From NCBI GenBank assembly GCA_001972305.1, contig BDDD01000561.1:165974-229973 (forward strand): DNA of 64,000 bases, read 5' to 3'. Source of the DNA: Cephalotus follicularis. Lineage: Eukaryota; Streptophyta; Magnoliopsida; Oxalidales; Cephalotaceae. The notes beneath the pieces were generated by a model, which had not been told where the DNA came from, made no database searches, and saw only the letters and a program-made list of their open reading frames with translations. Within the stretch, counting starts at the first letter, position 1; each line of letters starts with the position of its first letter. The position numbers and the translations under genes were made by a program. This document shows positions 25,860 through 64,000 of this stretch, piece by piece.

Positions 25860-26277
25860 CACAGCTTTTCTCTTCTCTTTCTCCATCATTCTCTGTGTTT
25901 TCCAAGAGATTTCTTGTGAGTTGAGAGTGGAAGTGTGTGTGTGTTGAGGCTACGGAACTTGTGTGTTGAAACCGTGAAGCTTGGAGGCTTGACAGTGGGA
26001 GTCCGGACCAGTGAAGGTTGCTGGACGTGTTGGGGTTGCAAGAGCTTCGGATTTAGACATAAAGAGGTGGATTGCAACTCCTAACTTGGAGTTCTAAGGT
26101 AGGGGGAAGTCGTTTTTGCAACATAATTTCAATTGAAAATGTTTTGATGAAATAAAATGCATGTTTATGTTATATTGTGAGCTTGGAACGTGTATGTGCA
26201 TAAATATGTCATTTTGGGTTGTGTTGGGTGTGTGATTGTGGCTGTTTTAGCAGCTGGTTTTTACACCTGCTGCAGAA

Positions 26278-26575
26278 TCCAGCCGACTGTCCACCTTGGG
26301 CAGTGGACTGCCTGAGGGTCCAGCCGACTGGTCTTGGGAGGCCAGTCGACTACCCAAGCTCGTTTCCAGAAAATGTTTGCAGGGGTTGTGTAGTCGAATG
26401 TTGTAGGTCAACAGCCGACTGTGGGGGTGTGGACAGCCGACTGTCCTGAGGGCCAGCCGACTGTCGAGAGTGGACAGCCGACTGTCAGTGTAGACAGCCG
26501 ACTGCCTGGTTGTCTAGCCGACTACTTTGAGGGGGACAGCCAACTGCCAGTGGTAGGCAGCCGACTGTTGGAGGC
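26278..26575. repeat. Palindrome cluster 2 in T1 5' LTR (CAGYCGACTG units)
   Basis: About a dozen copies of a 10-bp unit, CAGCCGACTG or the perfect palindrome form CAGTCGACTG, occur at irregular 15-30 bp spacing, some degraded (CAGCCAACTG, TAGTCGAATG). The unit contains (G/A)(C/T)CGAC, the core bound by plant DREB/CBF factors; that link is inference. The 3' LTR counterpart (33315-33640) has one extra 21-bp unit. Confidence 0.85.
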
Positions 26576-32472: not shown

Positions 32473-32503
32473 TACCACCCTTATTTCAGGGATGAAATTC
32501 CTT

Positions 32504-32517
32504 GAAGGAGGGGTGGA
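32504..32517 (+). other. T1 polypurine tract
   Basis: GAAGGAGGGGTGGA directly precedes the 3' LTR start at 32518. It primes plus-strand synthesis. The same tract, reversed, borders E's LTR at 46615-46631. Confidence 0.88.
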
Positions 32518-34831: not shown

Positions 34832-35579
34832 GAGATCGTTTAGTGGGTCAGTTTATTATTCTTATATTTCTGGGGGCGTAATTATAAATTTTGAAAAGTT
34901 ATGTTGTAGGTCGTTTCAGAGTTTCTTTCTGCAGACAACGTAAAAACATTGTCATAAGTTGTTTGTCATGATTTTGGGGTCAAATTTGCCTTCCGAGATC
35001 ATTTAGTGGGTCAATTTATCGTTCTTATATTTCTAGAGGCATAATTAATTCATTTCAGGGTTTCTTTTTACAGACAACATAAATGCATCGTCGTAAGTTG
35101 TTTGTTGTTATTTTGGGGTCAAATTCTCCTTTTGAGACCGTTTAGTAGGTCAATTTATCGTTATTATATTTCTAGAAGTATAATTGTAAATTTCTAAAAG
35201 TTATGATTTTAGTCTTTTCAAGGTTTGTTTTTACAGACAACATAAATGCATCATCATAAGTTGTTTGTTGTGATTCGGGGGTCAAATTCACTTTCTGAGA
35301 TCGTTTAGTGGGTCAATTTATCGTTCTTATATTTCTAGGGCCGTAATTATAAATTTTAAAAAGTTATGTTTTCAGTCATTTCAGGGTTTCTTTTTCAGAC
35401 AACATAAATGAATCGTCGTGAGTTTTTTGCCGTGATTTTGGGATCAAATTCGCGTTCTGAGATCGTTTAGTGGGTCAATTTATCGTTCTTATTTTTTTAG
35501 GGGTGTAATTATAAATTTCAAAAAGTTATGATTTAATTCGTTGCAGGTTTTCTTTTTACAGACAACATAAATGTCATCG
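34832..35579. repeat. Satellite array block 5
   Basis: About 4.5 satellite monomers with a few short internal deletions (one near 35040) lie between target copies GAGAT (34832-34836) and CATCG (35575-35579). Confidence 0.93.
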
Positions 35580-37864
35580 TGTTACGCCCGGGATTTTCGT
35601 AAAGTGTAAGGTTGTTTTTACAATGTAATTTATGCATTGAATTAATGAGAATTATGGCTTTTCCCTATTTGTAATGTTAAACTTGGGCAAAAGTTGAAGT
35701 GTGGAAGTGCAGGTACAGGGTGGGCAGCCGACTGCCCATGAGGGGCAGTCGACTGGACCCTGTGGGAAGGAACCAGCTGCCGGTTGCATGAAACAGCCGG
35801 CTTGATAGTGTCGGCAGAGACAGCCGACTGCCAAGGCAAGGAAGTCGACTGCCAAGGGACAGGTCAGTTAAAAACGTGTTGGCAGTCTGTTCTTGGCAGA
35901 GAGAAAGGGGAGAGAAGACAAAAATGAATTGATCGTGTCGGCTTGTGAGGATGAGGCACAAAAATGCCCATAAAAATACACGCTTCCTCTTCTCTTCTAA
36001 TCAGCAAATGTAAAGACATAGAGAGTTATGAAGAGGGAGAGGCGGTGGAGAGAGAGTGAGAGAGAGAGGTGTATCTCTCCAACATTGGCTTGGAATCTGG
36101 TCTTGGAGCTCAAACCGGACCTGTTGGAATTGCGGGACGAATACGGAGGCTTGGAAACTTGGATTGGAACTCAAAGAGGTGGATTGAAATTCCTAACTTG
36201 GAATTCTAAGGTAGGGGTAAATCTCATAATTGTGGTTTAAGTTTTGTTATGATGGACGTTAATGGGTGAAATGCATGCTATGGACTATGTTATGAGCATA
36301 AACGTGTGTTATTCCTGTTGAATACTCGTTTTGGGTTGGATTGAATGGAGAAAGACATGCATTTTTCTGCCCTTTTGCCTGCTGGTGTGAATCCAGTCGA
36401 CTGCCGAGGCAGGCAGCCGACTGGTGGGCTAGAACAGCCGGCTGTTCAGTGTGAACAGCCGGCTACTCAATAGGGAACCGCCGACTGGATGCAAGAACCA
36501 GTCGACTGTTCATACGTTAAGTAGAATATATCTGCAGAAGGTTGTGTAGTCGACTGCCATGTGAGGGCAGCCGACTGGACGAGATAGGCAGTCGACTGTC
36601 TGGAGGAGACAGCCGACTGTTAGGGGACGCAGCTGACTGCCAGACTCAGGACAGCCGACTATTGAAGGAAAACAGCCGACTGTCAAGCGACACAGCCGAC
36701 TGGATAGGGACTGACCCGCATACTCGAGCATATCTTTGCATTGTATTTTGATATGGAATGGATTGTTGACTGAATGTGATTGAGTTCTAAAGTGTTTTAT
36801 CATTTTAGAAGTGCATACATGATTTTATACAATCATTATTTGAAACGAAAACATATATTTTGATAAACGTGTGTTTTCAAGGGATCGAAACATGGTTTTT
36901 AAGGATGGACTACATTTTGAATAAATGTAATACTTCTAGTATTTTATAACCTATAAACTACTTGGAAATGGTTGATTTTGGATTGACCTTGGATTGATTG
37001 ATTGATTTTTGTGTTTGGATTGATGCTGCGCTAGTTCCGTGACGGAGGTGTCATGAGGACTAGGGGCAGGATTGTGTGCCTAGGGGCCAGGAGTTGGCTA
37101 GGGACACCCACACTGATCAGATTGATGCTGCGCTAGTTCCGTGACAAAGGTGTCATGAGGACTAGGGGGGATTGTGCGCCTAGGGGCCAGGAGATGGCTA
37201 GGGACACCCACAAACACTGTTTGCTTTTCCTTTGTGCAAGAAATAGCGGATTGATTGGATTGGCTGGATTGATTGGATTGGTCCTTCGGGATGTGACTAT
37301 TGGGTTGGTAATTGTGGCCACTTGGCATGGCTGTGCCTTTGGTATAGATACGTATACATACGTATATATGTATTATGGTATATTATGTTTTGCATCATGT
37401 GTGCATTCATTTCATGACATTCATTATCACTAACCTTGAATTACACTCATGGTTTAGCCGAGTGAGGACAAAGGCTATCCCCCTACTATTGCAGATTGAT
37501 TTCAGGTTGATGCGGCGGATTGATACCGTTGAGCTCCGTGAAGCGGATGGAGTTTTATATTGTTTTATTTGCTTAAGATAAATGTTGAACGATGTATTAA
37601 GACATGTTTTATTTGGTTTACTGTTTAATGTATTAATCAACCTCGATCATGCTCCATTTGTGGGCAATTGACAATGGCTTGTGATGTTAAAATGTGGGAA
37701 TCATGTGGTATGGGACACATGACTCGTTTGTTTATCCAGCTTATTATTCAAGTGCTTCCGCAAATGTCAATGGAATCGAAGTTTTAAATTTTATCGTATT
37801 TTGTAAGCTGAATAATTGTGTTAAATTGCCATGACTTATGTTGTTAACGAAGCGGGGTGTGACA
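35580..37864 (+). mobile_element. Solo LTR, family H (related to T1 LTR)
   Basis: Starts TGTTACGCCCGGG, ends GGGGTGTGACA; CATCG flanks both sides (35575-35579 and 37865-37869). It is 2285 bp without gag or pol. The layout follows T1: palindrome clusters (35724-35855 and 36390-36706), TATA-like CATAAAAATA near 35968, hairpin AATTCC/GGAATT (36188-36205), donor-like AAG|GTAGGGG (GT at 36211) and an acceptor-like CAG ending at 37494. About 100 bp containing GCCAGGAGTTGGCTAGGGAC is duplicated in tandem (about 37018-37210). Confidence 0.9.
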
Positions 37865-44136: not shown

Positions 44137-44789
44137 ATGGATCGTCGGAGAGGTTGGCGGGGAAGGCAGAGGGTTGAAGAGGAAGTTAATGCCCTACCAG
44201 TGCACGAAAATGTTCCGCAAATGAATGAAGGAGGGGATATTCCACAGATGAATGAAGAAGTAAATGTTCCACCAGTGCAAGATGAAAGGAGTAATTTCGA
44301 CCGTATGGCTGATCTTTTTCAACAGAAGATACATGCCAATGCAGTGAATATGGAACAGTTGCGACAGATGTATGAAGCGAATCAAGGGTACCATAATGCA
44401 CCTGAAGTTAATCAAGCTGGTGTTTTTGGGAGAGATCTGGAGAGGTTCATGAGGCAGAATCCTCTGATATTTAAAGGTGAACTTGATGCCACCATAGCGG
44501 AACAGTGGATGAGGGACATGGAGAAAATCTTTGCTGCTTTGGAGTGCATGGATGAGCAAAAGTTGAACTTTGCAGTGTACCGGTTATGCGGAGAAGCTAC
44601 CCATTGGTGGGAGTTAATTGAAGCGAAGTGGGAATCTCTTGATCTTTGCAGAAGTTGGGATAGATTTCAGTATGAGTTCAGGGATGCTTATGTTCCACAG
44701 ATGGAGCGTGATCGATGGGAGACTGAATTGCTGGAGCTGCGTCAAGGAGACATGACGGTAGCTCAATATCAGACCAGATTCATTGAGCT
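44137..44789 (+). pseudogene. Element B gag, 5' part (split by element D)
   Basis: The ATG at 44137 starts MDRRRGWRGRQR, followed by a Gag domain with DLERFMRQNPLIFKGELDAT, EATHWWEL, ELRQGDMTVAQYQTRF. After codon 217 the frame runs into D's LTR; the remaining gag resumes, in frame, at 62707. The visible 5' part has no stop, so B's gag was probably intact here when D arrived. Its role is particle formation and RNA packaging. Confidence 0.9.
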
Positions 44790-45004
44790 TGTCACACCCC
44801 GTTTTCCATTGAGACAACATATATGGTGATATCAATTATAAATAATAATCCAGCATTCAAAATTAAACAAAACTCGTTATACAAATAGCGGAAGCATTTA
44901 AATCCGGATTATAAAAATTATCCGCACGCAGCCCATACTACGTGCTTATACAATAGCAACAATTATCCTTTTACATATTGGAAATGTACAACAACAACAA
45001 CGGA
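44790..45004 (-). mobile_element. Element D: terminal LTR fragment (last about 215 bp)
   Basis: Matches 53662-53876 at about 95% by eye, starting TGTCACACCCC on +. It breaks off at AACAACGGA and is followed by a 13-bp duplicated RT sequence (GATCCGAGAAGGT twice, 45009-45034), which looks like filler at an end-joining site. Confidence 0.88.
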
Positions 45005-46177
45005 ACCTTCTCGGATCACCTTCTCGGATCCTCAACTGATGATAACCGGTTCTCAGGTCAAGTTTGGAGAATACAGTTGAGCCTTGAAATTGGTCAAACA
45101 ACTCCTCAATATGTGGCAGAGGATACTTGTTCTTCATAGTTACCTGATTCAGCAGCCTGTAATCGATGCATAGCCGCATCGATCCATCCTTCTTTTTCAC
45201 AAACAGAACCGGTGCTCCCCACGGTGACACACTCGGCATGATGAAGCCCTTATCAAGATAATCCTGCAATTGAGTTTTCAACTCCTTCAGTTTGGTAGGA
45301 GCCATTCGGTATGGAGCTTTGGATATAGGAGCAGTCCCAGGCATTAGTTCAATGCTGAACTCTACATCCCCCTCCGGTGGCAACGAAGTAAGATCATCCG
45401 GAAATACGTCAGGAAAATCACATACAATAGGAACTTGCTCAATACTAGGTGTACCTTTCGCATGATCAATCACGTACGCCAAATAGCCTTCGCATCCTTG
45501 TTTGAGGTACTTCTGTGCTCGAGTATACGAAATGATCGGAGAAGAAACATTCTTTTCTCCGATAAACTTGCACTCAGTCCCATCTTGAAGGTAAAAGGTC
45601 AACATCCTGTTATAGCAATCAACACAAGCATGATGAGCATACAGCCGGTCCATCCCCAAGATTACATCGAAATCTCGGATAGGCAACACCATCAAGTCAG
45701 CAGATAACTAAATCCCGGCTACCATGATCTCACAATTTTTCATTATAGTATCAGACAGAAGACAAGTACCAGTTGGAGTACTCACTTCCAACACATAAGG
45801 TAAACTAGAAGTCACATCATGCAGGTTGCAAGCAAAATCAGATGCAATGAATGAATGTGTAGCACCACGATCAATCAATACATGAGCTAGTATGCCAGAT
45901 ATAAAAATGGTACCTCCCACAACAGTAGTAGATTCTGGCACATCATCTCTAGATAAGGTATAGACCCTACCTTTCACAATCCCTTTTCCAGTATCCCTTC
46001 GCGGTTGTGCAGCTGCAACACTACCACTAGCACCAGCAGTTCCCTGTTGTCCGTGTGCTTGATCTCTCATCATTGAACAACTATTCAGCATATGTTCTTG
46101 TGAGCCACACCTCAAGCATTTCCCCATATTTTTCCTGCACTCAGTCTCATCATGGTTCTGGCGACCACAAAAAGTAC
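45005..46177 (-). pseudogene. Element D zinc knuckle, protease and N-terminal RT (broken)
   Basis: On minus, reading from E's insertion point: the rest of a zinc knuckle, a second knuckle (CLRCGSQEHMLNSC), a protease whose active-site motif is LIDRGA instead of DSGA, a TAG at 45708-45710, then the protease-RT linker and RT up to [16 protein letters not shown]. The RT fingers part is kept ([21 protein letters not shown]), but the catalytic FIDD region is absent because the sequence breaks into an LTR fragment. The first knuckle is split by E, with its other half at 52592 onward. Confidence 0.85.
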
Positions 46178-46614
46178 TGTCACACCCCGTTCAAGAGAAA
46201 CGTAACATTAAAGCAGTAAAGGCAATTTACATAAAGCACAGCTCATGCAAAACCATAAAATTTAAAACTTTTCGAAGGTACAACAGTTACGGAAGCATAA
46301 CAAAACATAAGTTGTAAACTCGTAACGTGCATCCCATACTGCACGCTACTCAAATACAAGTCATCATAGTTAATCGCCCATAAAACGGAGCGTGAATTAC
46401 AGTACGAGATTAAAATCCTTCAGTAACAAAACCATAACAACGGTACATCCGAAAACCATAACCAACATAGGTTTAATACAAAGGAGGAGAATAAGCAAAA
46501 TCAAGAACATAACAACTTGCACTAAATTCGGAAAATTCATCCTTTTATTAATTTCACAATTCAAAAGTACAATACATTGTGAAATTACAATACATGAAAA
46601 TCTCGGGCGTTACA
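46178..46614 (-). mobile_element. Element E 3' LTR with about 0.86-kb internal deletion
   Basis: Both ends match the 5' LTR, but sequence equivalent to about 51631-52491 is missing. The join reads ACAACTTG then CACTAAATTCGG. The lost part includes the palindrome cluster and the acceptor-like box, so this LTR lacks most of its promoter region. Confidence 0.85.
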
Positions 46615-46659
46615 TCCACCCCTCCTTCAAGCAATTTCGTCCTCGAAATTAAAACAAAT

Positions 46660-48289
46660 CTAGAACAAGTGCGGGTAGCGTTCTCGGACATCCTCCTCAC
46701 GCTCCCAAGTTGCTTCATCAGGTTTGTGAAACTGCCATTGAACCTTGACCATGGAGATGGTTCGGTTCCTCAAAATCTGCGTCTTCCGATCAAGAATCTG
46801 CACAGGCAATTCCTCACAGGACAGATCATCTCGCATCGGAACAGTATCATGATCCAGGACATGTGATGGGTCCGGGACATATCTCCTCATCATAGATACA
46901 TGGAAGACGTCATGCACGTTCGATAGTGCAGGAGGTAAGGCAAGCTGGTAGGCTACCTCCCCAACTCTCTCCAGAATCTCGAAAGGACCAATGTAGCGAG
47001 CAGCTAATTTGCCCTTTCTTCCAAACCGTTTCACGCCCTTCCATGGTGAAACCTTCAAAAACACGTGATCACCCACACTGAAGGTCAAAGGTCTCCTTTT
47101 TACATTGTCCGTATAGCTCTTCTGCCGACTCTGAGCAGAAAGCAGCTTCTTCTTGATCGTCCTGATCTTTTCTGAGTTTCCTCCACCAGCTCAGTCCCGA
47201 GTAAAGGTCGCTCCCCGACCTCATCCCAATACACAGGAGATCTACACTTCCTCCCATACAGTGCCTCAAACGGTGCCATACCGCTACTGGAGTGATAGTT
47301 GTTATTGTAAGAGAACTCTATCAGAGGGATGTGATCCTCCCAAGTACCAGCAAAATCAATAATGGAAGCCCGTAGCATATCCTCCAAGGTCTGGATGGTA
47401 CGCTCAGACTGCCCATCGCTCTGAGGGTGGAAAGCAGTACTCAGGTTCAGCTTTGTCCCGAAAGCTGTCTGAAATCTCTTCCAGAAGTTGGAAGTGAAGA
47501 TGGCATCTCTGTCGCATACGATACTGACTGGAACACCGTGTAATCTCACTATCTCCTTCACATACAAACGAGCTAGCTTGCTCGCAGGATCAGTAACATG
47601 TGTAGCCAGAAAGTGTGCTAATTTGGTGAGTCTAACCACGATGACCCACACGGCATTATGATGGTTCCGAGTCAGAGGAAAACCCGAAACAAAATCCATC
47701 GTAACATGTTCCCACTTCCACTCTGGAATGGGCAAAGGTTGCAGCAAACCTGCTGGTCTCTGGTGCTCGGCCTTAACTGTCTGGCAAGTCAAACACCTTG
47801 CCACATACTCAGCGATCTCCCGCTTCATGCCAGGGCACCAGTAACACTTCTTCAAGTCTTGATACATCTTCGTCCTGCCAGGATGAATACTGTACAGGGA
47901 TATATGAGCTCCACGAAGTAGTTCATCCTTCAGTCTTGGTTCATTCGGAAGACACACACATCCCCGATACCTCAAAATACCATCAGCATGCACTCGAAAG
48001 TCGGATCCCGAGTCCAGGTTCTCTCGAATCCGCCGCAACTCCGGACATGTGGTTGTGCATCTCTTATGTGGTCTAGTAACACAGGCTGTACCCGCATGTC
48101 AGCTAGAAAGATCCCCGGTGACTGATTGAAAGAAGACCATTCTTGGAAGTCTTCCAACATCTTCCATTGTGACACCATCGCACGGGCAAGCATAGCCTTG
48201 CGTCTCAAGGCATCAGTGACCACATTCGCCTTCCCCGGGTGATACTGGACACAGCAATCATAGTCATTGAAGAATTCTACCCACCTGCA
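46660..48289 (-). pseudogene. Element E integrase and chromodomain (frameshifted)
   Basis: After the TAG at 48290-48292, the same frame continues through the linker (about 48223-48050), shifts near 48045, runs as integrase (48038-47100) and shifts again near 47175 to the C-terminal frame (47088-46660). The zinc-binding part has LYSIHPGRT and CLTCQTVK; the core keeps MDFVSG, CDRDAIFTSNF and SERTIQ, so all three catalytic acids are present, unlike T1. The tail is a chromodomain (VKVQWQF, DEATWERE). Without the shifts it would be a complete integrase. Confidence 0.87.
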
Positions 48290-50395
48290 CTATCTCATGT
48301 TCAGTGTATCTTGACAAAACAGATACCTCAAGATTTTATGATCAGTAAAGATTTCAAACTGCGCCCCATAAAGGTAGTGCCTCCACTTCTGAAGGGAAAA
48401 GATAATAGCCGCAAGCTCAAGGTCATGAGTCAGGTAGTTTTCTTCATACGGTTTCGGCTTCCTCGAGGCATATGCAATCACTCTGCCTCGCTGCATCAAT
48501 ACACAGCCCAAACCCCTACCTGATACATCACTATACACTGCAAAGCCTTCATTACCATCAGGTAATGCCAAGATAGGAGCGGAAACTAACCGGTCCTTCA
48601 GCTCACAAAAACTAGCCTCACAGTCTTCGTCCCAGAGAAAAACAGTCTTCTTCTGGGTCAGTCTGGTCAAGGGTTCGGCTATCCTTGAAAAATTCTGGAT
48701 AAACCTTCTGTAATATCCCGCCAAACCAAGGAAACTGCACACTTCCGTCACATTCTTCGGTTGTGGCCAGTCTCTCACTACTTCAGTCTTTGACGGATCC
48801 ACCGTCAAGCCTTCTCCAGATACTATGTGACCGAGAAAGATCACATGGTCAAGCCAGAACTCACCCTTGCCAAACTTGGCGTACAATCGGTGTTCTCTGA
48901 GAACCTGCAACACTAGCCTCAGATGATGAGCGTGCTCCTCCTCGCTCCTCGAATATACCAGTATGTCATCAATAAATACCATAACAAATTGGTCCAGATA
49001 TGGTCGGAATACGTCATTCATCAATGACATAAAAGTTGCCGGTGCATTGGTAACGCCAAACGGCATCACCAAGAACTCGTAGTGACCATACCGTGTTCGG
49101 AAGGCAGTCTTCTCAATGTCTCCTTCCCTTAATCTTAACTGGTGGTAACCCGATCTCAAATCAAGCTTGGAAAACACCCTCGATCCTTGCAACTGATCAA
49201 ACAAATCCTTAATGTGGGGTAAAGGATATTTATTCTTGATAGTTTCTTTGTTTAACATTCGGTAGTCGATACAGAGCCTCATCAACCCATCCTTCTTCTT
49301 GACGAACAGTACAGGTGCACCCCATGGAGAAACACTGGGTCTAACAAAACCCTTATCAATCAGGTCTTGTAACTGTAGCTTCAGCTCTTGTAACTCAACC
49401 GGAGCCATCCGATAGGGTGATTTAGAGATAGGAGCCATTCTAGGAACAAGATCAATAATGAACTCCATACTCCTCTTAGGTGGTAAGGATCCCAAGTCAG
49501 CAGGGAACACGTCTGGAAATGCACACACAACAGGAATTTCCTCCAAGCTCGCTCCTTTCTCCTTCCTTCGATCAATAACATAGGCCAGATATCCCTTGCA
49601 TCCCTTCTCTAGGTATCTCGAAGCACGAATAAATGATATGATCGGTGTCGAGAACCCTTTGTCTCCCTTGAACTGAAAAGTCGTTCCGTCGGGCAGACAA
49701 AAATCCACAGTCTTATGGTAGCAATCCATACGAGCATGGTGTGCCGATAGCCAATCCATCCCCAGTATAACATCGAAGTCACGGATAGGCAGCACTATCA
49801 AATCTGCATACAAAGGAATGCTTTCCATAGACATCTCACAACCTCTATATACCGAGTCAGTATACATAGAAGTCCCAATCGGTGTGCTCACATCAAGTAT
49901 AAAAGACATGCAGTCAGGGGTGACATCTAAGCAAGATGCAAAATGTGCAGATATAAAGGAATGCGATGCTCCAGAATCCATCAGTACTCTAGCATAATAA
50001 TCATATATATACAGAGTACCTCCAACAATAGAAGTCGACTCTGGAACCTCAGTCTGAGCAAGTACAAAAATTCTACCTTTTGCGACGCCCTTGCTAGTGT
50101 CCCTCCTCTGTGACGGTCCCGCAGTCGCACCACTACTGCTCCTCGGCCCAGTAGGCGCTGTAGCAGAACTCTTTCGGCAGTCCTTCACTGAATGACCCGG
50201 TGCCCCGCACCTCAAACACCAGCCATTGAACTTCCAGCAATCTTTCTGTTGGTGGCCGGTACGACCACAGTAAAAGCATCCTCCAGATCTAGCATTACTC
50301 CCCTGGCTGGGAGTACCCTGTGAAGCTGTCTGCTGAGACTTGTTCTTCGACGACTTCGTCAGAGAACCACCATATTGCCACTTTGACGATGCTGG
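48290..50395 (-). pseudogene. Element E zinc knuckles, protease, RT and RNase H
   Basis: A long frame on minus: zinc knuckles ([14 protein letters not shown] and [14 protein letters not shown], about 50290-50170), protease [10 protein letters not shown] (about 49970), RT with [41 protein letters not shown], and RNase H with [11 protein letters not shown] and DHKILRYL. It ends at TAG 48290-48292, where T1 has CAG in MRQR. Upstream it is separated from gag by TGA at 50396-50398, where T1 has arginine. This is the longest intact pol stretch in the window (641 codons from 50215). Confidence 0.9.
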
Positions 50396-51174
50396 TCAGG
50401 ACTGTGTAGGACTCTGTTTACTCTCTTTTGCGCGAGCTCTCTCAGCCCGGTCCTCACTGGATATCGTCTCCAATAGTCTAGCTTTCTGAGAAACCTCCAC
50501 ATAAGTCCTCAGATCCATGGCTCTAATCCTTGGCCGAAGATCCGGTCGTAACCCTCTCAGGAACCTCTGTATCTTTTTCGCTTCGTCAGCCACCAGATAA
50601 GGTGAATGTCTGGCCAACTCCATGAATCTTGCTTGATATTCAGCTACAGTCATCTCTCCCTGTCGTAACTCCAAGAGCTCAGTCTCTCGTCGCTCTTGCT
50701 CAATATACGGAACATAAGCCTCCAAGAACTCAGTCTGGAATCTGTCCCAAGTACTGTCTAGTCCCTGTGTCTCCCATTTTGCCCTAACCATTTCCCACCA
50801 ATGAGTGGCCTCACCCCATAGGCGGTACACATCAAATTTCAGCTTCTGAGCATCAGTACAGCTCATCACATCGAAGATCTTCTCCAAGTCTTGCAACCAT
50901 CTTTCAGCGATAGTAGCATCAAGTTCTCCCTTAAAGCTGGGTGGATTCAGCCTCATGAACTTCTCAATATCTCCACAAAAACCATCCTCTCCCGGGCAGT
51001 GGTCAGGAGCCCTATGTTGCGGTTGAGCTTGCGCGTGGTACTGGCGCATCTCCTCCGCATTAGTACTATATCTCTGTCATCTAGGGGAATATTCATCCCT
51101 TGTGGAACATTAGCTTCCTCCGGGGCATTAGCTCCAATGGCACTAGCCCTAGCACGAGTTCTCCTTCGGTCCAT
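50396..51174 (-). pseudogene. Element E gag (frameshifted)
   Basis: The ATG at 51172-51174 gives MDRRRTRARASA, frameshifted near 51060. The main Gag domain continues at 51049-50396 with KFMRLNPPSFKGELDAT, EATHWWEM, ELRQGEMTVAEYQARF and FLRGLRPDLRPR, ending at TGA 50396-50398. The order and length match T1 gag. Confidence 0.88.
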
Positions 51175-51283
51175 TTCCTATAAGAAGGTAGACGATCAGT
51201 CACGACTTTAGGAAAGCAATTCATTAATTTCCAAGGAAAGTATCCTAGCTAAGCATATATGGAATATGTTCTGATACCACTGT

Positions 51284-52586
51284 TGTCACACCCCGTTCAA
51301 GAGAAACGTAACATTAAAGCAGTAAAGGCAATTAACATAAAGTACAGCTCATGCAAAACCATAAAATTTAAAACTTTTCCAAGGTACAACAGCTGCGGAA
51401 GCATAACAAAACATAAGCTGTAAACTCATAACGTGAATCCCATACTGCACGCTACTCAAATACAAGTCATCATAGTTAATCGCCCATAAAACGGAGCGTG
51501 AATTACAGTACGAGATTAAAATCCTTCAGTAACAAAACCATAACAACGGTACATCCAAAAACCATAACCAACATAGGTTTAATACAAAGCAGGAGAATAA
51601 GCAAAATCAAGAACATAACAACTTGATCTTCATCCATGTCAGTCCAACCGGTCCACTGCATCAATCTGTAAAGTAGGGGGTTAGCCTTTGTCCTCACTCG
51701 GCTAAGTCATAAAAGCAGTTCNNNNNNNNNNNNNNNNNNNNNNNNNNNNNNNNNNNNNNNNNNNNNNNNNNNNNNNNNNNNNNNNNNNNNNNNNNNNNNN
51801 NNNNNNNNNNNNNNNNNNNNNNNNNNNNNNNNNNNNNNNNNNNNNNNNNNNNNNNNNNNNNNNNNNNNNNNNNNNNNNNNNNNNNNNNNNNNNNNNNNNN
51901 NNNNNNNNNNNNNNNNNNNNNNNNNNCAGGTCACATGTGTCTAGGATACACCCCCACCTCTACATGCAGCAGCTGGTCTCGTTTCTCCGTCCTTCTCTCA
52001 GCCTTCATGCCAGACAGTGCCACATTCATTCTCACAATCCATTCCCAGCACACATGTCCCTTTTCTTCATGCACTTGTTGCATGCACCCACCCATGCCAC
52101 ACTTGTCCTCACAACCTCAGTTATGCAGGTTAGGGAGGCATGTGCATGACCAACACGTCCCAATGCATGCCTCAAGGCACCTGCAAAAGGCTCTAACCAG
52201 ATTCCCTTCGCACGTTATTTTTCAGTAGAGTAACGTGTCTGGAATTCGAAGTTAATATGTCGACGTCTTTCCAAAGACGTCGATGTCATTCATCAGTTTA
52301 CACGAGGACGTCGATGTCCTCCTCCGGATCGATGTGCATGTGCATGCAGCTACGTGCACCCTTTTGCCACAAAGACGTCGATGTCTTTCTAAGGGTGTCG
52401 ATGTGTTTCTCCCAGAACAGCGTCGTTTTAGGCTTTTAACATTCTTTTAGCATATACTCTAAAATTCAACATGATAGAGATGGTAAAACATCACTAAATT
52501 CGGAAAATTCATCCTTTTATTAATTTCACAATTCAAAAGTACAATACATTGTGAAATTACAATACATGAAAATCTCGGGCGTTACA
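51284..52586 (-). mobile_element. Element E 5' LTR (contains an assembly gap)
   Basis: TGTCACACCCC...GGGCGTTACA on +, 1303 positions of which 205 are N. On minus it starts TGTAACGCCCGAG. It holds a GACGTCGATGTC palindrome cluster (52258-52430) like that of LTR C, and an acceptor-like box (GGCTAACCCCCTAC...CAG on minus, 51657-51700). The true length is unknown because of the gap; the donor-like site probably lies in or near it. Confidence 0.88.
51722..51926. other. Assembly gap (205 N)
   Basis: A run of N within E's 5' LTR. Any reading frame across it is meaningless. The paired 3' LTR lacks the same region, so it cannot fill in the missing sequence. Confidence 1.
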
Positions 52587-52591
52587 AGTAC

Positions 52592-53556
52592 ATCCACCCG
52601 AATTCTGTTGACCTCTGCGGTTAGGAGTTCTTGATCATGAATTTCTGCGTCGAGAACCTGCTTTGCCCTTGTTGTCGGACCTTGTCAACATATCAGGGTT
52701 ATTACTCCCTTGTCCTTGTGATTGTGTGGGCCTCAATTGATTTATACGAGACCGCTCCTCCCTTCTCTCATTCGCATCGGCTTCCAGAATCATCGACCTT
52801 TCAGCAATATCTACAAAAGAAGTTAGTTGTAGCAATAACAGTTTAGACCTAATGTCAGGCCGAAGGCCTTTTAGAAACCTCCGGATCATTTGCGACTTGC
52901 CCTCCACCAGATAGGGGGTATGCCTTGCCAATTCCACAAATCTAGTCTGGTACTGAGCTACCGTCATATCCCCTTGACGTAACTCCATCAGCTCAGTCTC
53001 CCTCCGATCACGCTCTATATGTGGAACATAAGCTGCAAGGAACTCAGACTGAAATCTGTCCCAAATCCTGTCAAGTCTATGAGATACCCACTTTGCTTCA
53101 ATCCTTTTTCACCAATATGTAGCCTCGCCCCATAAGCGGTATACAGCAAAGTTGAGTTGCTACTCATCAGTGCACTCCACGGCAGCAAATATTTTCTCCA
53201 GGTCTCTTATCCATCGCTCTGCCACAGTAGCATTCAACTCACCATTAAATATCGGGGGATTCTGTCTCATGAACCGCTCCAAATCTCTGCCAAAACCACC
53301 AGTATGAAAAGCTTCAGGAGCATGCTGATAGGCTCGGTTAGCCTCGTACATCTGCCAAATCTGCTCAATGTTCGCCGTATTGACTAGAATCTGCTGCTGG
53401 AAGAGGTCATCCATATGGTCAAAATTACTCCTCTCTTCTTGCACTGGAGGAATATTCGCTCCTTCATTCGCTGGCGGATCATGTTCATGCACTGGCGGTG
53501 CATTGACTCCTTCGTCGGCTCTACGCCTTCCCCTCCTACCTCTTTATAGGTCCATT
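52592..53556 (-). pseudogene. Element D gag (heavily mutated)
   Basis: On minus, an ATG-led start near 53556 hits a stop within a few codons (TAA about 53547). The frame then gives a Gag domain with DLERFMRQNPPIFNGEL, EATYW and ELRQGDMTVAQYQTRF, interrupted by TAG 53160-53162, a TGA near 53112 and TGA 52635-52637. It leads into the first half of a zinc knuckle, cut by E at 52591. Similarity to B gag is high, so B and D are sister families. Confidence 0.87.
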
Positions 53557-55746
53557 TGGTGTCGTATATGGAATGACATTATCATTAGGAAACAATTCAC
53601 TTAATTACCGAGAAACTTATCCCAGCGATAGCTTATTTAAAAATAAGCCCTGATACCATGCTGTCACACCCCGTTTTCCATTGAGACAACATATATGGTG
53701 ATATCAATTATAAATAATAATCTAGTATTCAACATTAAATGAAACTCGTTAAACAAATAGCGGAAGCATTTAAAGCCGGATTATAAAAAGTATCCGCACG
53801 CAGCCCATACTACGTGCTTATACAATAACAACAATTATCCTTTTACATATTGGAAATGTAAAACAACAACAACGGAGTATGATCGTTTATTTCAATACTA
53901 CATAGTGAATAACAACCTTAACAAAATAGAAGCTCTCCAATAAAGCTTCAGCAGCACTTCCCGAACGCCTTAACTTAATCTGAAATTGTAGGGGGTTAGC
54001 CGTTGTCCTCACTTGGCTAAGTAGGAATAATGCATGAAAAAGAATATATAATTGTAACATGCATGTCAGTTATTTTGAAATAACATAAATATAAGTGTTT
54101 CAATATATATAAGCAATCGAGCCAAGTGGCCATAGACAATACAATTCAAGAATACCGCACAAGGGTAAAATCAATCAATACAGTGGTATGGGTGTCACAT
54201 GTCGCTAACTCCTAGCACCCACTGCGCACCACCTAACTATCACCCTACACTCCGAAGATGATAGATCAAGTCAGTTCTACCGGCATTTAACGGGCAGGTA
54301 ACAATCAGGATCTGTCTTACAGATAAGTGTGGTGGATGCTCTAGCCAACTCCTGGCACATAGGACCACCCCGTAGCCAGTGATGTCTCCTATCACTCGAC
54401 TAACGGCAATAACATAGACAAACAGTTCAATCAATTCAACAACAATATTACATATATCTATAATATGTAATATAGTAGTAGTTTTCTTTTGAAACATTTA
54501 ACAATTCAGTAACCGTACCTCTCATTGGAGGAAACGGTATTCAATAGAGTAGTTGTGCCTCTCGATAGAGGAAAATCAGTAAATTATTTGAAAATAAGTT
54601 TTCATTTTGGAAACAATAAGGAAAACCCATAATTGCGCTTATAGCACTAGTTGGTTCACTCATTAATATTAAGTGTAACAATACTATTTCTGAACACTTA
54701 ATAGCTGTACAGTATGTATAACAGAATCGTTAAACAGCAGCGGAACAATCGCAATTCAAGGTTCACAAGATGTTATCATACCCTAGTCATTTTTGCGCAA
54801 CTCTCACAAGGAGTGCATACGTTGTTTACTTTTGTAATATAACTACCTAAGGCCAGGATTGACTGTTACAAGCATCCCATCTGGAGGCCAGGTTGATTAC
54901 ACACAATTTAAAGCCTAACAACAGCTAATATCAGTAATTTTGTCACTTAACAATCGGCTGTTCATAAGAATAGCCGGCTATTTTCATTAGGCAGTCGACT
55001 GTTTGTCCTAAACAGTCGACTGTTTACATTGAGCAGTCAACTGTTGGGATTAAACAATCGACTGTTTTTGTCCAGAATTGTCAGGCAGTAGTTTAATAAA
55101 ACAGAGTATGCATGCTCACAATCAAATTCCAACCAATCAATAACATGCAATCATACATAAATCATCCAGGCATGATATACATATCATATCTTCTAAAACA
55201 TGTCAATACCCCTACCTCAATCGCTATCCCAGAATCAAATTTGGATTGATTCTTCTCTTTGAGTTCCAACTTCACTCAACACCAATAATCCAGAAGTTTA
55301 ATGCTATAGGTGCATGTTAACAGGTATATGCAACGAAATCAGTAACCGAATATGGTTGACTAACTACCTTTTCAACACTGAATTAAACCAGTAACTTACC
55401 AGGGATTCCTAAGCGTCAAACTTTCTTTTGAGTTCCAACCTTATATCCACTCCACTCCAATTCCAGCAATTAACTATATGTGTGTTAACAAAATATTTAT
55501 ATAGTACACAATCAATACACATATACCTATTGGACGATTATAACATATCTGAAATCATGCAGAAGCTTACCTCTTAAATTCAAGCTTCTAACTTCACTTG
55601 GAACCCCAAATCAACATGTAAGCTCTAGCAATTCCTCCAGTAATTTGTTCAGATCGTTTCTCTATCTCTCAGTGTTTTCTAACACTCAATCAGCTCATGT
55701 ATCAGCTGATATAAGGCTCAATTCGTGTCATTAATTCCAAATTTTA

Positions 55747-57005
55747 TGTCACGCCCCAAACCGCGAAGGCGAACCCCCACGATCCGACGCGTGAGATACC
55801 ATCCATTCAGTCCGTTCAATCAAATATAATTCATACTCCATATCATTTATCAATCATATCTCAAAGTACTATACATATAAAACTTTAAATCAAAGTTATA
55901 CAAGCGGAAGAGTCATTTTATAACATCAACGGAATAATCAATCCAAATAAAAACTAACTCTTAAAATCTGCATGAAGTATTCGTTTATCGGACTAAACTC
56001 CCTGTAAAGAAAAACACATTTTTATATATTCACACTCCCGAAGGACGAATCAACAATATATCACAATATATGGACCCTTCCATGTCCTTTACATCAACAC
56101 ACATATTAAACAAGCACTGCCACAAGTCGGCAGGTCAATAGCTGAATATAAACATATCTCTATATCATCTTTACATTTGTCTCCTATACAATAACTATAA
56201 ATACATCCATATTCAATATCTGTCCTTTCACAATATCACATTTATACAAAGTAGGTCGGAGGAGAGGTAAATCCTTACCCTGTGATTTAACCCGGCTGGT
56301 CACTGCTGCGTGTCACCTGGACCTGAACCTGACCCATTACATTACAATATAATGCAATGGGTCAGTAACCCGAAGGTTGTGTAGGATACATATATGCAAG
56401 GTGCATATAGGAGTGCAGCAGATAAGTATGCCATATGAGAGATGTATGTACAACATGAGAGATGTGCGCATGACTATCGTTATAAACCCTGCTATGAAAT
56501 CTAGCATTTAGAAGCATGCCGTTTTCCATTGTAGTCACCGTTTGAAAAAAAAACATATCCATACTATTCCAACAAAATTCCATTATCATTCGTTATCCAT
56601 ATCATTCCAAGGTCCTTTCAAAGCATATATAAGCTCTTCTCGTCCTTCCTTGCCGGGGTAACAAACTAGGCGCTTTTGGCATTCTAGGCAAAGGTCCTTA
56701 TTCCACTGGCAGACTAGAGTAGCATTCCTAAGTAGAACAGAGATGAGAAGAGGGACCTTCTCTAACGCTGGACTCTCTAGCTACACCCACCATCACTATC
56801 CATACACCATCACGATCCATAATGATATGATCCGTAACCATATCGTTCTCGTTCCATAACCACACTATTCGTAACCATACTGTCCGTATAGCGAACGGCT
56901 ATACTATATACCATGCATGCAACAATATAAAGATATGCCATGCATGCCACAGGGACTAAGGTGCTATGCATGCATCCAGTGTAATTATAAGTCATGTGGT
57001 GAACA

Positions 57006-57054
<49 letters not shown>

Positions 57055-59641
57055 AATATGCCATGTGATGTCATGTGTATAAATGGCAATCGTAGACAGC
57101 TTTGTGTGTGTATCAATATGCCATGTGATGTCATGTGTATAAATGGCAATCGTGGACAGCTTCAATATACCAGCCGTCCCTAAGCGGGGTATATTTGGCT
57201 AGTCCTAATTACATCAAAGGCCATAGGCCTGCAGACAATCCATATAACAATCCATATCAATCATAGGGACAATCAGTTCATAGGGTCCATCCCACCCTCG
57301 ACGCACTTTTGGTGACGTGGAGGAGTGAGGAATGAGATAACACTAACCACGTCGTTTATTTCTTGATTTGTAGGGGTCCACCCATGTGCGGGGTCCGCGT
57401 AATGTATATGGATCCACCCAATGTGTGGGGGCCACGCAATGTATATGGTCTATCGTTCCTGAGATTCACGACAGAAATGAAGGTCAGGAACGGGTTATCT
57501 CTATAGTCTCATACGACACAATCAACAATGTATCCCGTAGTTATAACCCAAAATCATGTATGCTTTTAAATAATAGGGACCGTTTTGTAAAGGATCTCTT
57601 GGATCCACGTCCGTCAATCAAGTAAAGATCATTTTGTAGTCATAAATCATTTTTCATATTCAATGGCCATTTTCATTTCCATAATCCATTTTGTAATCAA
57701 TTTTCATATATCATTTGATTGGTCCCTATCGAAGTTATAATGAATAGAAAGGGAGTCCAAATGGGAGAATCCGCGTCCAGATGTCCCAATGGAACTATCC
57801 TAACCATTTTTTGAAAACCATTTGTATAAAATCCCCTTTTTATGAAACTTCCTTTAAAGATTTATTTTGCAGGTTGATCCGTAGTTTAAAAATGTCACAA
57901 GAGGATTTTCATCGGCTTCAAGGCCTTAGGGAGGCTTCCTATGAAATCCATTTGTATAGAAATCCATTTCGGATCAAAACCATATAAAACAGTTGAGTTT
58001 AACTAAAACAGGGCACTAAGCGTCGATGCTTAGCCCTAGGCGTCGACAGTTTTAAAAAGCATAAGTATAAAGCATCAACGGTTTGTTCGAAAGCATAAGG
58101 CGTCGACTGTTTGATTTAACACATAAAAGCGTCGACAGTTAAGAAGAAAGCGTCGACGGTTTTGGAAGAAATATTGTTTTGCAAAACAGTTCAGAATTCG
58201 GTGAAAATCATATCTAAAACAGTTCAAAGCCCTTTTTGATTCATCCCATAGCTCATGAATCTAGAGAAGGCAAGAACTCATCTCCTCTCAAATCAATATC
58301 TAACCCTCATGCGATATGCACATCCATTCGTATATTCGTATGTATGTATATATATATACAATCATGCATCCATAATTCGTATGTATATATATATATACAA
58401 TCATGCATCCATACAATTACAATTCGTGCATATATAAATCCATATAACCATTTAGAATGCATGAATGAAAGTAAAACAGTGAAACCTACTTTAGTGATCT
58501 ACCATTCGTATACCACCGTCCCATAACGACGTATATGAATGGGATCAAGTCTATATTCATCTGGAGCACGTACCATCGGAACATATGTATACCTACATGT
58601 TAACGGTTGAGCTTGCGAGTCGGGAGGACTTGCAGCAGAATCCACGAACTGCCACCACCTCTAAGCTTCACTCGCTGTCACGAGCACAGGTCCATCTTTT
58701 GTCAACGAAGTTCTCTTTCTCTCCTCGTATCACTGCAATAACCATCACACATCCTGTTAAAACTTACACAAATGTAGCAATTACACATTGTCGTCACCGG
58801 AGTTCCGCCCAATTTCCGGCCAACACATCGAAACTCCAGCCACGCCATCAACAGGCTCCAAATTGGCCAATCTATGCATTGATAGTCCTGACTCGCCATG
58901 AATCGCACAGTCACAGCTGGCAGTGAGTCAACTCAATGAGTCAACTCGCCGGTCAACCACAATTTCGGTCACCACCCGAAATCTCCACACAATCATCAAT
59001 TCTAAGCGTCACTGCCAGAGACTCGCCGTGACTCACCGAAGAACACGCTGTCACGACCGGCTAGTGAGTTCAACTCACTGAGTTGACTCACCGGTCGTCC
59101 ACAACTCTGGCTACCACCATAAAACGCATCACGAGAACCAGCCAAACACATCTATGCCCCTAACTCACCGAGATTCGGTGCTAAATGTGCGGTCAAAGGC
59201 GACAGCGAGTCGGTTCGCTGAGTTAACTCGTCAGTTTGAATCCGGCCGTTTCTGATCGAATGGTGCCTCAAAAGTGGTTGAAGCGGGAAGAGCTAGCCTT
59301 CTAGACAAAGACCAGTACCATCCGTGACACTAACCGGAGGCAGAACGCACGGCAGTGCATGGCAGAGGCGGTATGGCGAAGAAGAAGGAAAGATAATGGA
59401 GGAAGAGAGAGTTACCGTCGGTTGAGGTGAGCACCGCACATCCTCCGGCCGTCGTCGCTTCGCCCAGCGTCGTTCCTTCTCTCCAGTGCCATCTCTCCCG
59501 CTCTCTCTCGCTTTCTCTCCCACACCCTGTCTTCTCTTTCTTCTTAGTGCAAGTGATGCGCCCAACGCATAACACACTTGTGTTATTCGCCTGATGGCTT
59601 TTTTTTTAAATATATATATATTTATATATTGAGGGCTTACA
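55747..59641 (-). mobile_element. Solo LTR, family A, nested in D's central LTR
   Basis: TGTCACGCCCC...GGGCTTACA, 3895 bp, flanked by TTTTA (55742-55746 and 59642-59646). No gag or pol. It follows 9083-13053 along its length, including the GCGTCGAC cluster (58015-58170), the TGACCCATT inverted repeat (56330-56364) and the GC-rich promoter-side region (58920-59560). An exact 60-bp-spaced duplication occurs at 57061 and 57121. Confidence 0.9.
57005..57053. repeat. (TA)n(GT)n microsatellite
   Basis: A short TA run passes into about 16 GT units within solo LTR A. The copy at 9083-13053 has no comparable expansion, so this grew after the copies separated. Confidence 0.95.
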
Positions 59642-60160
59642 TTTTAGCCTTTTGCTCTTTCTCTCTCTCACATGCATGTTTCTTCCTCTTTTCCTTTTTC
59701 CCACATCTGTTTTGCAAGCTGCAGGTTTGCAAGTCTACAGGAGGAATAGAGAACATGCAAGCCATCAACCTTACACGTTGTTATAGCTGGTGGCATGCAT
59801 ACAACACCTGTCCATTGCATGCCACACCTCTGCTCTGTCTCGCGCCATGCACAGACACTTATCCTATGCCTTACTAGTCGACTGTATTTTCTTGGCAGTC
59901 GACTGTTTGATCTGTCCACTTCCATGAATCAAACAGTCGACTGTTCCCCTGTGACAGTCAGCTGTTCCTCCATAACTAGGCAGTCGACTGTTACCCTGTG
60001 ACAGTCGGCTGTGGTGGCTGATTTTTGGTTACTTAAGTTTATTCCCTTAATGAAACCATAATCACCAATTCATATAACCATTGGACATTAAAATTCAATG
60101 TAATGCATATTCTATTCATCACGACTACAATATACATTGATTGAAATTGTGGTTATTACA

Positions 60161-62290
60161 TTCCCCCTTCCTAAAAGAAAATTTGTCCATGAATTTAGCC
60201 TTTACATTCCGAACAAGTGAGGAAATGTTTCCATCATCTCAGCTTCACATTCCCAGGTTGCTTCCTCAGCTCTGTGAAAACGCCACAGTACTTTTACCAT
60301 AGGAATAGTCTTATTCCTCAGTACTCTCTCCGTTCGATCCACAATCCTTGCCGGCCTTTCTTCATAAGACAATCTATTACTGATGAATCCCGGGTCGTAG
60401 CTCAATATGTGAGATGGGTCGGGTACGTATTTTCGTTACATGGAAACATGAATTACGTTATGCACACCCGACAAACAAGGCGGTAGTGCAATCTGATATG
60501 CCACTTCCCTCACTCTCTCCAGTATCTCATAGGGTCCAATATACCTTGGAGCCAACTTTCCTTCGAGGCCAAAACGGTGTATCCCTTTCGAATGCGAGAT
60601 CTTCAGAAAAACATGATCTCCCTTCTCGAATTCTAGCTTCCCCCTCTTTATGTCGGCGTAACTCTTCTGCCTACTCTGTGCAGCTAGCAGCCTCTTCTTG
60701 ATCAATTCCACTTTATCGGTAGTCTCTTGTACCAAGTCTGGTCCCAGCAGTTGTCTCTTACCCTCTTCATCCTAACAAATAGGCGATTTGCACTTTCTCT
60801 CATACAAGGCTTCATAGGGAGCCATTCCAATGCTGGTGTGATAGTTGTTGTTATAAGAGAACTCAATCAGTGAAAGATGATCCTCCCAACTCAAAGCGAA
60901 ATTAATCATACAAGCCTACAGCATATCTTCAAGGGTCTAAATGGTATGCTCAGACAGTCCATCGGTCAGTGGGTGGAATGCAGTACTGAAGTTCAAGGTT
61001 GTTCCCATAGCTGCTTGGAACTTCTTCCAGAACCTCGAAGTGAATCTAGCATCACGGTCACAAGCAATACTGAAGAGCACCCCATGCAATCTCACTATCT
61101 CCCAGATGTACAATAGAGCCAACTTCTTGATAGAATATGTCATGTTCATTGGAAGAAAGTGAGAAGACTTAGTGAGTCTGTCCACTACAACAAACACTAC
61201 TTAGTGTTGATTCCGTGACCTCGGTAATCCAAACACGAAGTCCATGGTCACATGTTCCCATTTACACTCAACTAATGGTAACGATTGTAGCAGTCCCGCA
61301 GGTTTCTGATGTTCAGCCTTCACTCTATGAAAGGTCAAACAACTTGCTACAAATTAAGAAATCTCTCTTTTCATACCACTCCACCAGTAGTTCTTTTACA
61401 GGTCATGCCACATCTTGGAACTTACAGGGTGAACACTATATTTTGACATGTGGGCTTGCTGCAGTAGTTCATTCCTGATGCTCTCATCATCAGGAATGCA
61501 TATCCTTCCTCAGAACTTTAGTATGCCATCAATATGAATGGAGAACTCAGAATCAGTGACTAGGTTCTCACGAATGCTCCATAACTCAGTGTCACTGTAC
61601 TGAGCAGTCAGAATACGCTCCAGAAGTTCAGGTTGTGCTCTAAGATTTGCCACAATAAGTCCTCGGGAAACCATGAACGGATTCCATCTCTGAAACTCCT
61701 CCAATAGCTTCCACAATGAAACCATTGCTCCAGCAATCATTGCCATGTGACTCAGCGCATCCGCCACTACATTTACCTTTCATGGGTGGTATTGAATGTT
61801 GCAGTTATAATCATTAAAGAACTCCACCCATCGTCTTTGTCTCATGTTGAGTTCCTTCTGGGAAGATAGATACTTTAAACTTTTGTGGTCAGTGAAGATC
61901 TCAAATTAAGCACCATACAGATAGTGTCTCCATTTCTGCAAGGCGAACACTATGGCTGCCAACTCAAGATCGTGTATGGGATAATTTTCTTCGTACGGCT
62001 TCAAGTTTCTCGATGCGTATGCAATCACCCTACCATGTTGCATAAGAACGCATCCCAATCCTTTCCCAGAAGCATCAGTGTAGACAGTATAACCCTCATT
62101 ACCCTCCGGTAATGCCAACACTGGAGCCGAAATCAACCAACTCTTCAACTCTTGGAAACTTGCCTCACAAGAATCCTCCCACACAAAACTTGACTTCTTC
62201 TGAGTCAACCGTGTCAATAGTGTAGGAAGCTTCGAAAACCCCTTGATGAACCTTCGGTAGTAGCCAGCCAACCCCAAGTAGCTACGAACC
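60161..62290 (-). pseudogene. Element D RNase H, integrase and chromodomain (broken)
   Basis: On minus the coding starts abruptly in the RT-RNase H connection ([10 protein letters not shown], about 62280). RNase H follows ([14 protein letters not shown] at 61906-61908), then a linker (61767-61510), integrase (61197-60937: DRLTKSSHFLP, CDRDARFTSRFW, a TDGLSEHTI variant of the glutamate motif), C-terminal part (60735-60436) and chromodomain (60405-60202: VKVLWRF, EEATWECE). Many stops and shifts separate these pieces. The tail is closely similar to 1-249. Upstream RT is absent; an LTR fragment is joined instead at 62291. Confidence 0.87.
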
Positions 62291-62706
62291 TGCAGGAGGA
62301 ATAGAGAACATGCAAGGCATCACCCTTGCATGTTGTTACAGCTGGTGGCATGCATACAACACCTGTCCATTGCATGCCACACCTCCGCTCTGTCTTGCGC
62401 CATGCACAGACACTTGTCATGTGCCTTACCAGTTGACTGCATTTTCTTGGCAGTCGACTGTCCACATCCATGAATCAAACAGTCAATTGTTCCCCTGTGA
62501 TAGTCGGTTGTTCCTCCATAACTAGGCAGTCGACTGTTACCATGTGACAGTCGGCTGTGGTGGTTGATTTTTGGTTACTTAAGTTTATTTCCTCAATGAA
62601 ACCATAATCACCGATTCATATAACCATTGGTCATTAAAATTCAATGTAATGCATATTCTATTAATCACAAGTACAATATACATTGATTGAAATTGCGGTT
62701 ATTACA
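62291..62706 (-). mobile_element. Element D: terminal LTR fragment (first 416 bp)
   Basis: Matches 59731-60160 at about 95% by eye, including the palindrome cluster. It ends GGTTATTACA next to target copy GAGCT (62707-62711). At 62291 LTR sequence (CAGGAGGAATAGAG) joins pol sequence with a few bases of shared sequence. Confidence 0.9.
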
Positions 62707-62878
62707 GAGCTGGCTAGACACACGGCTTATCTAGTGGAGGGAGAGTTAAGGAAGATAAGGAGATTCTTGAAGAGTTTGAGCCCAGACATCTGGTCCAAGC
62801 TGGTGGTACTATAGTTGACTTCCTTTGTTGATGTTATAGAGAAAGCAAGGACTCCGGAGGCAGATGAAAATGAGAGAA
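62707..62878 (+). pseudogene. Element B gag, continuation
   Basis: Begins with the duplicated GAGCT and continues gag in the frame of 44137-44789: ELARHTAYLVEG, RRFLKSLSPD. An in-frame TAG is at 62812-62814, where the related gag of D has glutamine. At 62878 the frame is cut again by an A-family LTR. Confidence 0.88.
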
Positions 62879-64000
62879 TGTAAGGCCCCAAATTTTATAA
62901 ATAATTATTTTAATATTGGTACAGTGTATGGCCGTATTGAGCCGATAGATCCCGAATTGATAAAAAGTATCGCGTATAGGTGCCGCAAATCATAAGGCCC
63001 AAAATGATTAATAAAGCCCATTTTTAATATGTGACAATAATCCCCTATGTTCGCATTATTATTGCGATTATTTTGGTACCCTTTCGGATAATTAATATTC
63101 CCGTTTGCGGATTAAACGGGACCCAGGCCTTTGTATTTTGGCCAGCAAATACCAAGAAGGGAAGCAAAACTTAAAACAAAGAAGAAAAGGAGACACAGGG
63201 GTGCATAAGGCGCCCGTGTCTGTTAAAGAAGGCAGACGAGAGAGAGAGATTGGGAGAGAGCAGTGGGAGAGAAAGGGAGAGAGGGAGAGCTCGACGCCGC
63301 CAGACCAGGAGCTCACCGGTCAGAGCCTCCACCCCTGACGGTATGCCTTCCTTCTTCTCTTCTCTTTTCTTCTTCTTTTCTGCCCGTTTTCTTCTCCCCG
63401 ATGTCGCCCCTGCCGCGCGCTACCGTGCGTTTCCCGACGCCGTTAGCATCGCGGATGGCATGGGATGTGGTGTAGGAGGCCGGCTACACATATTTCAATG
63501 ACCTGTTTGGTGTCAATCGGCGGAAAACGGTCGGATTTAAACTGGCGGGTCGACTCAGCGAGTTGACCCGCTGCCGCCTTGGACCGCGCTAATGCGCACC
63601 GAGTCCCGGCGATTTAATGGCATAGGTGTGTTGATATGGTGGTTGTGGTGCATTTTATGGCGTTGGCCGGAGCTGAGGACGACCGGCGAGTCAACTCAGT
63701 GAGTTGAACTCACTGGCTGGCCGTGACACAGCGAGTCACGGCGAGTCTGTGGCAGTGACGCGTAGAACTGATGGTTGTGAGGCGATTTTGGGTTGTGACC
63801 GAGGCTGCGGTTGACCGGCGAGTTGACTCAGTGAGTTGACTTGTTGCCGACCGTGACAGCGCGTTTCGCGACGAGTCACGATGAGCCTCTGATGGATTTG
63901 AACATATCGCCCAATGTGGAACCTGTTTTTGGGTTTCGCCGGAGCTAAATGAATTGGCCGGAAACTGGCCGAAGCTCCGATAGCGGATGTTCTTGGTTTC
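62879..64000 (+). mobile_element. Family-A LTR start in + orientation (continues beyond window)
   Basis: TGTAAGGCCCC matches the reverse complement of 13053 leftwards. The preceding GAGAA (62874-62878) would be its target copy. It contains CT/GA-rich promoter-side sequence (63170-63420), a likely noncoding GC-rich part, and three repeats with GGCGAGT(T/C)(G/A)ACTCAGTGAGT (about 63548, 63687 and 63817). Whether it is a solo LTR or a full element cannot be seen. Confidence 0.88.

Follow-up and report, generated by a model that had tools for sequence, protein, structure and literature searches.

The window, by which we mean the whole 64,000-nucleotide stretch of Cephalotus follicularis DNA analysed here (contig BDDD01000561.1), contains on its minus strand a long terminal repeat (LTR) retrotransposon, element D, at positions 44790-62706. 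D contains one central LTR, pieces of two outer LTRs and two different halves of pol. We judge it somewhat more probable than all other explanations together that D is a three-LTR complex of single origin, flanked by target-site duplications (TSDs), that later lost two internal segments. In this sense D is a known though rare kind of element; from the order of its domains we take it to belong to Ty3/gypsy. An earlier note on this DNA, made from the sequence alone, had proposed that an extrachromosomal one-LTR circle, opened in the reverse transcriptase (RT) region, was captured in a broken LTR of its own family. The lack of overlap between the pieces and the type of junction do fit that proposal, but capture as a single event is not established, and a circle donated by another copy is disfavoured. 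D lies inside the gag of a related plus-strand element, called the host below. The parts of D, its flanks and the insertions nested in it are the following (positions in the window).

44137-44789, plus strand: left part of the host gag, an open reading frame ending in the GAGCT at 44785-44789; 44566-44780 aligned to D's gag
44790-45004, minus strand: outer LTR end piece, 215 bp, 95.3% identical to 53662-53876
45005-45014, minus strand: filler of 10 bp, copied from adjoining pol, at junction 2; junction single-copy in the genome
45015-46177, minus strand: D protease and N-terminal RT; RVP_2, RVT_1 (profile positions 1-86 of 205) and matches to the copies L002-L008
46178-52586, minus strand: N1, a nested LTR element with an internally deleted left LTR; AGTAC at 46173-46177 and 52587-52591, LTR matches, domains
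51722-51926, no strand: assembly gap of 205 N, in N1's right LTR
52592-53661, minus strand: D gag and primer-binding-site region; Retrotrans_gag; gag adjoins the LTR end in other copies, primer site found by eye
53662-60160, minus strand: central LTR, both ends kept, split by a nested insertion; primer site and purine tract at its borders, both found by eye
about 55747-59610, strand not settled: N2, the insertion splitting the central LTR; boundaries approximate
60161-62291, minus strand: D pol half with RNase H, integrase, putative chromodomain and purine tract; RNase H by Pfam, the remainder because its DNA resembles other copies and N1
62290-62291, no strand: junction 1, a 2-bp overlap of LTR piece and pol; junction single-copy in the genome
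62290-62706, minus strand: outer LTR start piece, about 416 bp; 30 differences at 415 sites against the central LTR
62707-62880, plus strand: GAGCT at 62707-62711 and further host gag; 62711-62878 aligned to D's gag

The two copies of GAGCT, at 44785-44789 and 62707-62711, flank the whole of D and form the single 5-bp target pair that the earlier note had described. When each flank was aligned alone to D's gag, the left part of the host gag ended at D-gag position 362 (window 44780) and the right part started at D-gag position 371 (window 62711). Counting 44780 on to 44789, the flanks overlap by exactly 5 bp, and the host gag is in register. One GAGCT pair and a host gag in register mean that both outer ends of D stem from one insertion. 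Read along the minus strand, D consists of the LTR start (62706-62290), the RNase H-integrase half (62291-60161), the central LTR (60160-53662), the gag-protease-RT half (53661-45015), the 10-bp filler and the LTR end (45004-44790), an order that the note had given and that LTR matches, domains and the comparison with other copies bear out. The central LTR is contiguous with internal sequence on both sides, gag and the primer site on one and integrase and the purine tract on the other. Pfam matches on D's pieces are Retrotrans_gag, RVP_2, RVT_1 and RT_RNaseH_2. In the putative chromodomain stretch D's DNA is 66.9% like that of N1, and the Chromo match, scored on N1, reaches 23 bits against a cut-off of 25.1.

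A structure of this kind might also arise when an assembler misjoins unrelated pieces of one family into a contig, and D holds a gap of 205 N and belongs to an abundant family (5,328 first-look candidates). The N run is a weak point of D's assembly. It lies inside N1, an insertion in the gag-protease region of D whose termini were read from the sequence, and the AGTAC duplications and a 95-bp identical LTR tail of N1 stand on both sides of it. The LTR pieces of N1 share 97% identity in a stretch of 342 bp and are fully identical in one of 95 bp; together with the duplications they support the join across the gap. Both odd junctions of D are more than 6 kb away from the gap, each is found once in the 1.58-Gb genome when up to 3 mismatches are allowed, and across D the host gag and GAGCT are in register. 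We regard an assembly error as very improbable. We also reject a repeated or mobile chimera, as each junction is single and the left boundary also occurs once. The right LTR of N1 (51284-52586) has about 866 bp of internal sequence, counting the gap, that are missing from its left LTR (46178-46614). The second insertion, N2, was placed by comparing the central LTR with seven other copies; homology to these breaks off at about 59641 and is found again from about 55714-55699.

The length of a complete LTR decides how the outer pieces should be read. Match coordinates in other copies of the family give 2,604 (C632), 2,609 (C817) and 2,612 bp (C1877), and element A in the same window has an LTR at about 291-2842, or about 2.55 kb, which shows the long LTR of this group. 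The outer LTR start at 62290-62706 corresponds to 59735-60160 of the central LTR, and the outer LTR end at 44790-45004 corresponds to 53662-53876. Together the outer pieces (416 and 215 bp) keep 631 of 2,609 bp, and 1,978 bp (76%) are missing. They have no overlap, and hence no common stretch over which they could be compared with each other. The claim that they are complementary parts of one LTR thus stands for the absence of overlap, but not for completeness. The pol halves fit each other much better. They do not overlap either, and between them 373 bp are missing against four of six copies, and 372 and 375 bp against the remaining two, or about 124 codons where the note had counted about 125. 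The six are what remains of the seven copies L002-L008 without L005, which has no RNase H part. Overlap between the outer LTR pieces or between the pol pieces had been named as evidence against a captured circle, and was found in neither pair. In another copy of the family, L048 (C817), there is an apparent internal LTR deletion between the start and end parts, and internal LTR losses are therefore not peculiar to D.

Both odd junctions are of a type left by end joining, as had been suggested. At junction 1 (62290-62291) the LTR piece and pol share a short overlap, 2 bp against five of the six copies and none against L004. At junction 2 the 10-bp filler (45005-45014) is identical to neighbouring pol. 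The 13-bp duplication that the note had placed at about 45009-45034 is real, and is best read as this filler, which was copied from the adjoining pol and so produces a 13-bp tandem repeat. The filler looks like the product of templated end joining, presumably linked to polymerase theta.

The kinship of the LTR pieces was examined by genome searches in which 40 matches were scored per search, out of 2,956 to 5,328 first-look candidates. With the outer LTR start as query, D's central LTR scores highest apart from the query itself (596 bits, next 535), and in the reverse search the outer piece is the best match of the central LTR start (596 bits, next 544). For the LTR end the values are 343 against 326 bits, and 343 against 340 bits in reverse. 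Maximum-likelihood trees were built with 31 rows each: the two D pieces, element A, and 28 loci from the 38 other matches. In them the outer and central pieces pair with support of 100/100 at the LTR start and 98/94 at the LTR end. The pairing at the start again received 100/100 in a 37-row tree, made after 12 of 49 rows had been removed as repeats; here the D pair shares six private bases, the most among all pairs of the 37 rows. Joining the central LTR start to the next nearest copy by raw distance was rejected by the approximately unbiased (AU) test (p 0.009). A tree with other genomic copies, which the note had called for, thus pairs the outer and central LTR firmly at the start and less so at the end. 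Outer and central pieces differ at 30 of 415 sites (7.2%) in the LTR start and at 10 of 215 (4.7%) in the LTR end, without a significant difference between the two (Fisher p 0.23). For comparison, two same-contig pairs taken as the LTRs of one element (C806, C817) differ at 17 of 417 (start) and 10 of 215 (end) sites. The simplest reading is that all three LTR pieces go back to a single sequence at this locus. The second-best LTR-end copy, C2420/L041, was considered as a duplicate of D and rejected, as its adjoining LTR stretch is 90.8% like D's, within the range of other copies.

These results bear directly on the possibility that a one-LTR circle from another copy of the family was captured in a pre-existing solo LTR. 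Such an origin would agree with the non-overlapping pieces and the end-joining type of the junctions, and at the LTR end the distance of L041 from the central LTR is about that of the outer piece. Circles of EVD are reported as numerous in Arabidopsis epigenetic mutants, with 52% of them truncated (PMC10462705). Against this, none of the 40 scored matches per search beats D's central LTR for either outer piece, and the LTR-start pair is supported at 100/100, where a random donor would be expected to be no closer than other copies are. A closer copy could have been missed, because 40 of thousands of candidates were scored. With the central LTR as best scored match and the pairing in the trees, a circle from an unrelated family copy is unlikely, and we give this origin hardly any weight. 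A circle with a closer source, either D's own insertion or an immediate sister that is otherwise lost, is possible.

Elements with three LTRs, and tandem LTR elements, are known from plants (PMC1950507, PMC5379124, PMC12786077). Sabot and Schulman found two TSD-flanked three-LTR complexes in about 7 Mb of Triticeae sequence, where their Table 1 counts 20 recombinant complexes beside 400 insertions of LTR retrotransposons (PMC1950507). In Arabidopsis, LTRtype is reported to identify, among 2,263 elements, 10 with three LTRs and a further 11+19+13 without one or both outer LTRs (PMC5379124). D resembles the complexes of Sabot and Schulman 2007 in having one pair of 5-bp target duplications and a middle LTR between internal sequences. 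In theirs both cores are complete and the outer LTRs very similar to each other; in D the outer units are deleted and no part of the core is present twice. The fragmented complexes of LTRtype (IN-LTR-IN, LTR-IN-LTR-IN and so on) share with D the internal sequence on both sides of a middle LTR, whereas D still has its target duplication and the tip of each outer LTR, and both of its losses are internal (PMC5379124). Since 416 and 215 bp of 2,609 bp are kept of the outer LTRs, D is called here a deleted derivative and not an intact member.

The deleted three-LTR complex would have come about as follows. A Ty3/gypsy element would have been inserted once by integrase at the GAGCT site. At or soon after this insertion it would have reached the state LTR-internal-LTR-internal-LTR, with the middle LTR in common. 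This could have happened through unequal exchange, with LTRs of one and the same insertion recombining across sister or homologous chromatids, or through template switching prior to integration. One deletion by end joining may then have removed about 4.8 kb, from about LTR position 416 to the border of RT and RNase H, and another about 4.9 kb, from the middle of RT into the last LTR, of which the final 215 bp were spared. N1 and N2 were inserted into D as well. That two internal regions were once present, and the order of these events, are what we infer from the present layout.

Several points weigh against this reading. No internal part is present twice, so that the second internal region is not demonstrated. 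When two independent deletions are drawn with uniform break points, the remaining pieces are free of overlap in 25% of cases, and free of overlap with a pol gap of at most 373 bp in 3.8%; among draws whose LTR pieces do not overlap, 5.9% show an LTR loss of at least 1,978 bp. Geometry thus puts a circle ahead of a tandem about 4- to 26-fold. At the LTR end, trees that join L041 to either of the D pieces are not rejected (AU p 0.16 and 0.14), the central LTR differs from C2420/L041 at 10 of 213 sites and from the outer piece at 10 of 215, and the D pair has one private shared base where other pairs have up to four. On these alignments the common origin of the outer and central LTR appears firm for the LTR start and weaker for the LTR end. 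Gene conversion between the LTRs of one element is reported to be common (PMC7251063), and it could later have mimicked the sister relation of D's LTR pieces. Finally, most published complexes derive from two insertions and are without TSDs, and those with flanking TSDs are rare: 4,704 candidates from rice and maize yielded 2 new ones, and Arabidopsis yielded none (PMC1950507).

The same geometry brings in a circle that returned to its own locus. Here recombination between the two LTRs would free a one-LTR circle and leave a solo LTR behind; the circle, opened in RT, would be end-joined back into a break in the solo LTR or its sister chromatid. The 1,978 bp of LTR and the 373 bp of pol now missing would have been lost in the process, and the result would be a circularly permuted element within the original target duplication. 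The content of a single element suffices for this, and non-overlap of the LTR and pol pieces follows by construction. It needs one homologous and two non-homologous joins, as many as the tandem does, and agrees with the filler and microhomology at the junctions and with the pairing of the LTR pieces in the trees. Yet the circle must re-enter exactly the locus from which it came, with its orientation unchanged, and the outer LTR pieces, with 76% lost, are far from abutting. A loss at the break could explain the 1,978 bp absent from the outer LTR. A direct trace of the circle cannot survive in the sequence, and the end-joining look of the joints is what deletions in a tandem would leave as well. 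One-LTR circles and integrase-independent tandem insertion, the subject of a review (PMC12786077), could supply a permuted one-LTR copy as in D, but the insertion pathway described there is homologous recombination or single-strand annealing, while the two odd joints of D are non-homologous. The earlier note had dismissed a tandem array because it would need coincident breakpoints. This argument is weak, because 76% of the outer LTR is missing and the pieces do not abut, and random deletions give non-overlap as often as stated above. In our judgement the commonness of tandems and internal deletions, compared with the re-capture of a circle, outweighs the geometry, and re-capture at the own locus is a less probable account, with perhaps a modest chance of being right.

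The rearrangement could also predate integration. Pieces of complementary DNA from one pool, LTR-tipped ends and an internal or circular piece, may have been joined in the particle or the nucleus, and integrase would have inserted the joined product through its intact LTR tips. Integrase requires only the LTR tips for insertion. The tips of D are intact and its 5-bp target duplication is clean, and all LTR pieces would have been identical at the start, in keeping with their similar divergence. Truncated new insertions have been reported, two of them with clear target duplications, although in the part of that study that was seen all of these have two LTRs and none is described with both outer LTRs broken inside (PMC10462705). 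We consider this route unlikely.

If D arose from a circle, it would be a fossil of the excision of an LTR element and its re-capture at its own locus. As a deleted three-LTR complex, it would be one more decayed case, of the rarer sort with flanking target duplications. In either case, non-overlap of pieces alone is no proof of a circle, and the length of the LTR must be known before pieces are called complementary.

The window contains further repeats. Arrays of a 163-bp satellite are found at 2840-9079, 13067-14215, 19464-21651, 24772-25486 and 35050-35580, with about 38, 7, 13, 4 and 3 copies, respectively; perhaps retroelements have split what was a single array. The plus-strand element A (1-2842), which belongs to a related family, ends roughly where the first array starts. 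A direct repeat of 2.3 kb with 95.6% identity (25500-27769 and 32518-34832) probably represents the LTRs of another element, and the interior of this pair (28165-32549) is 78% like N1, in inverse orientation.

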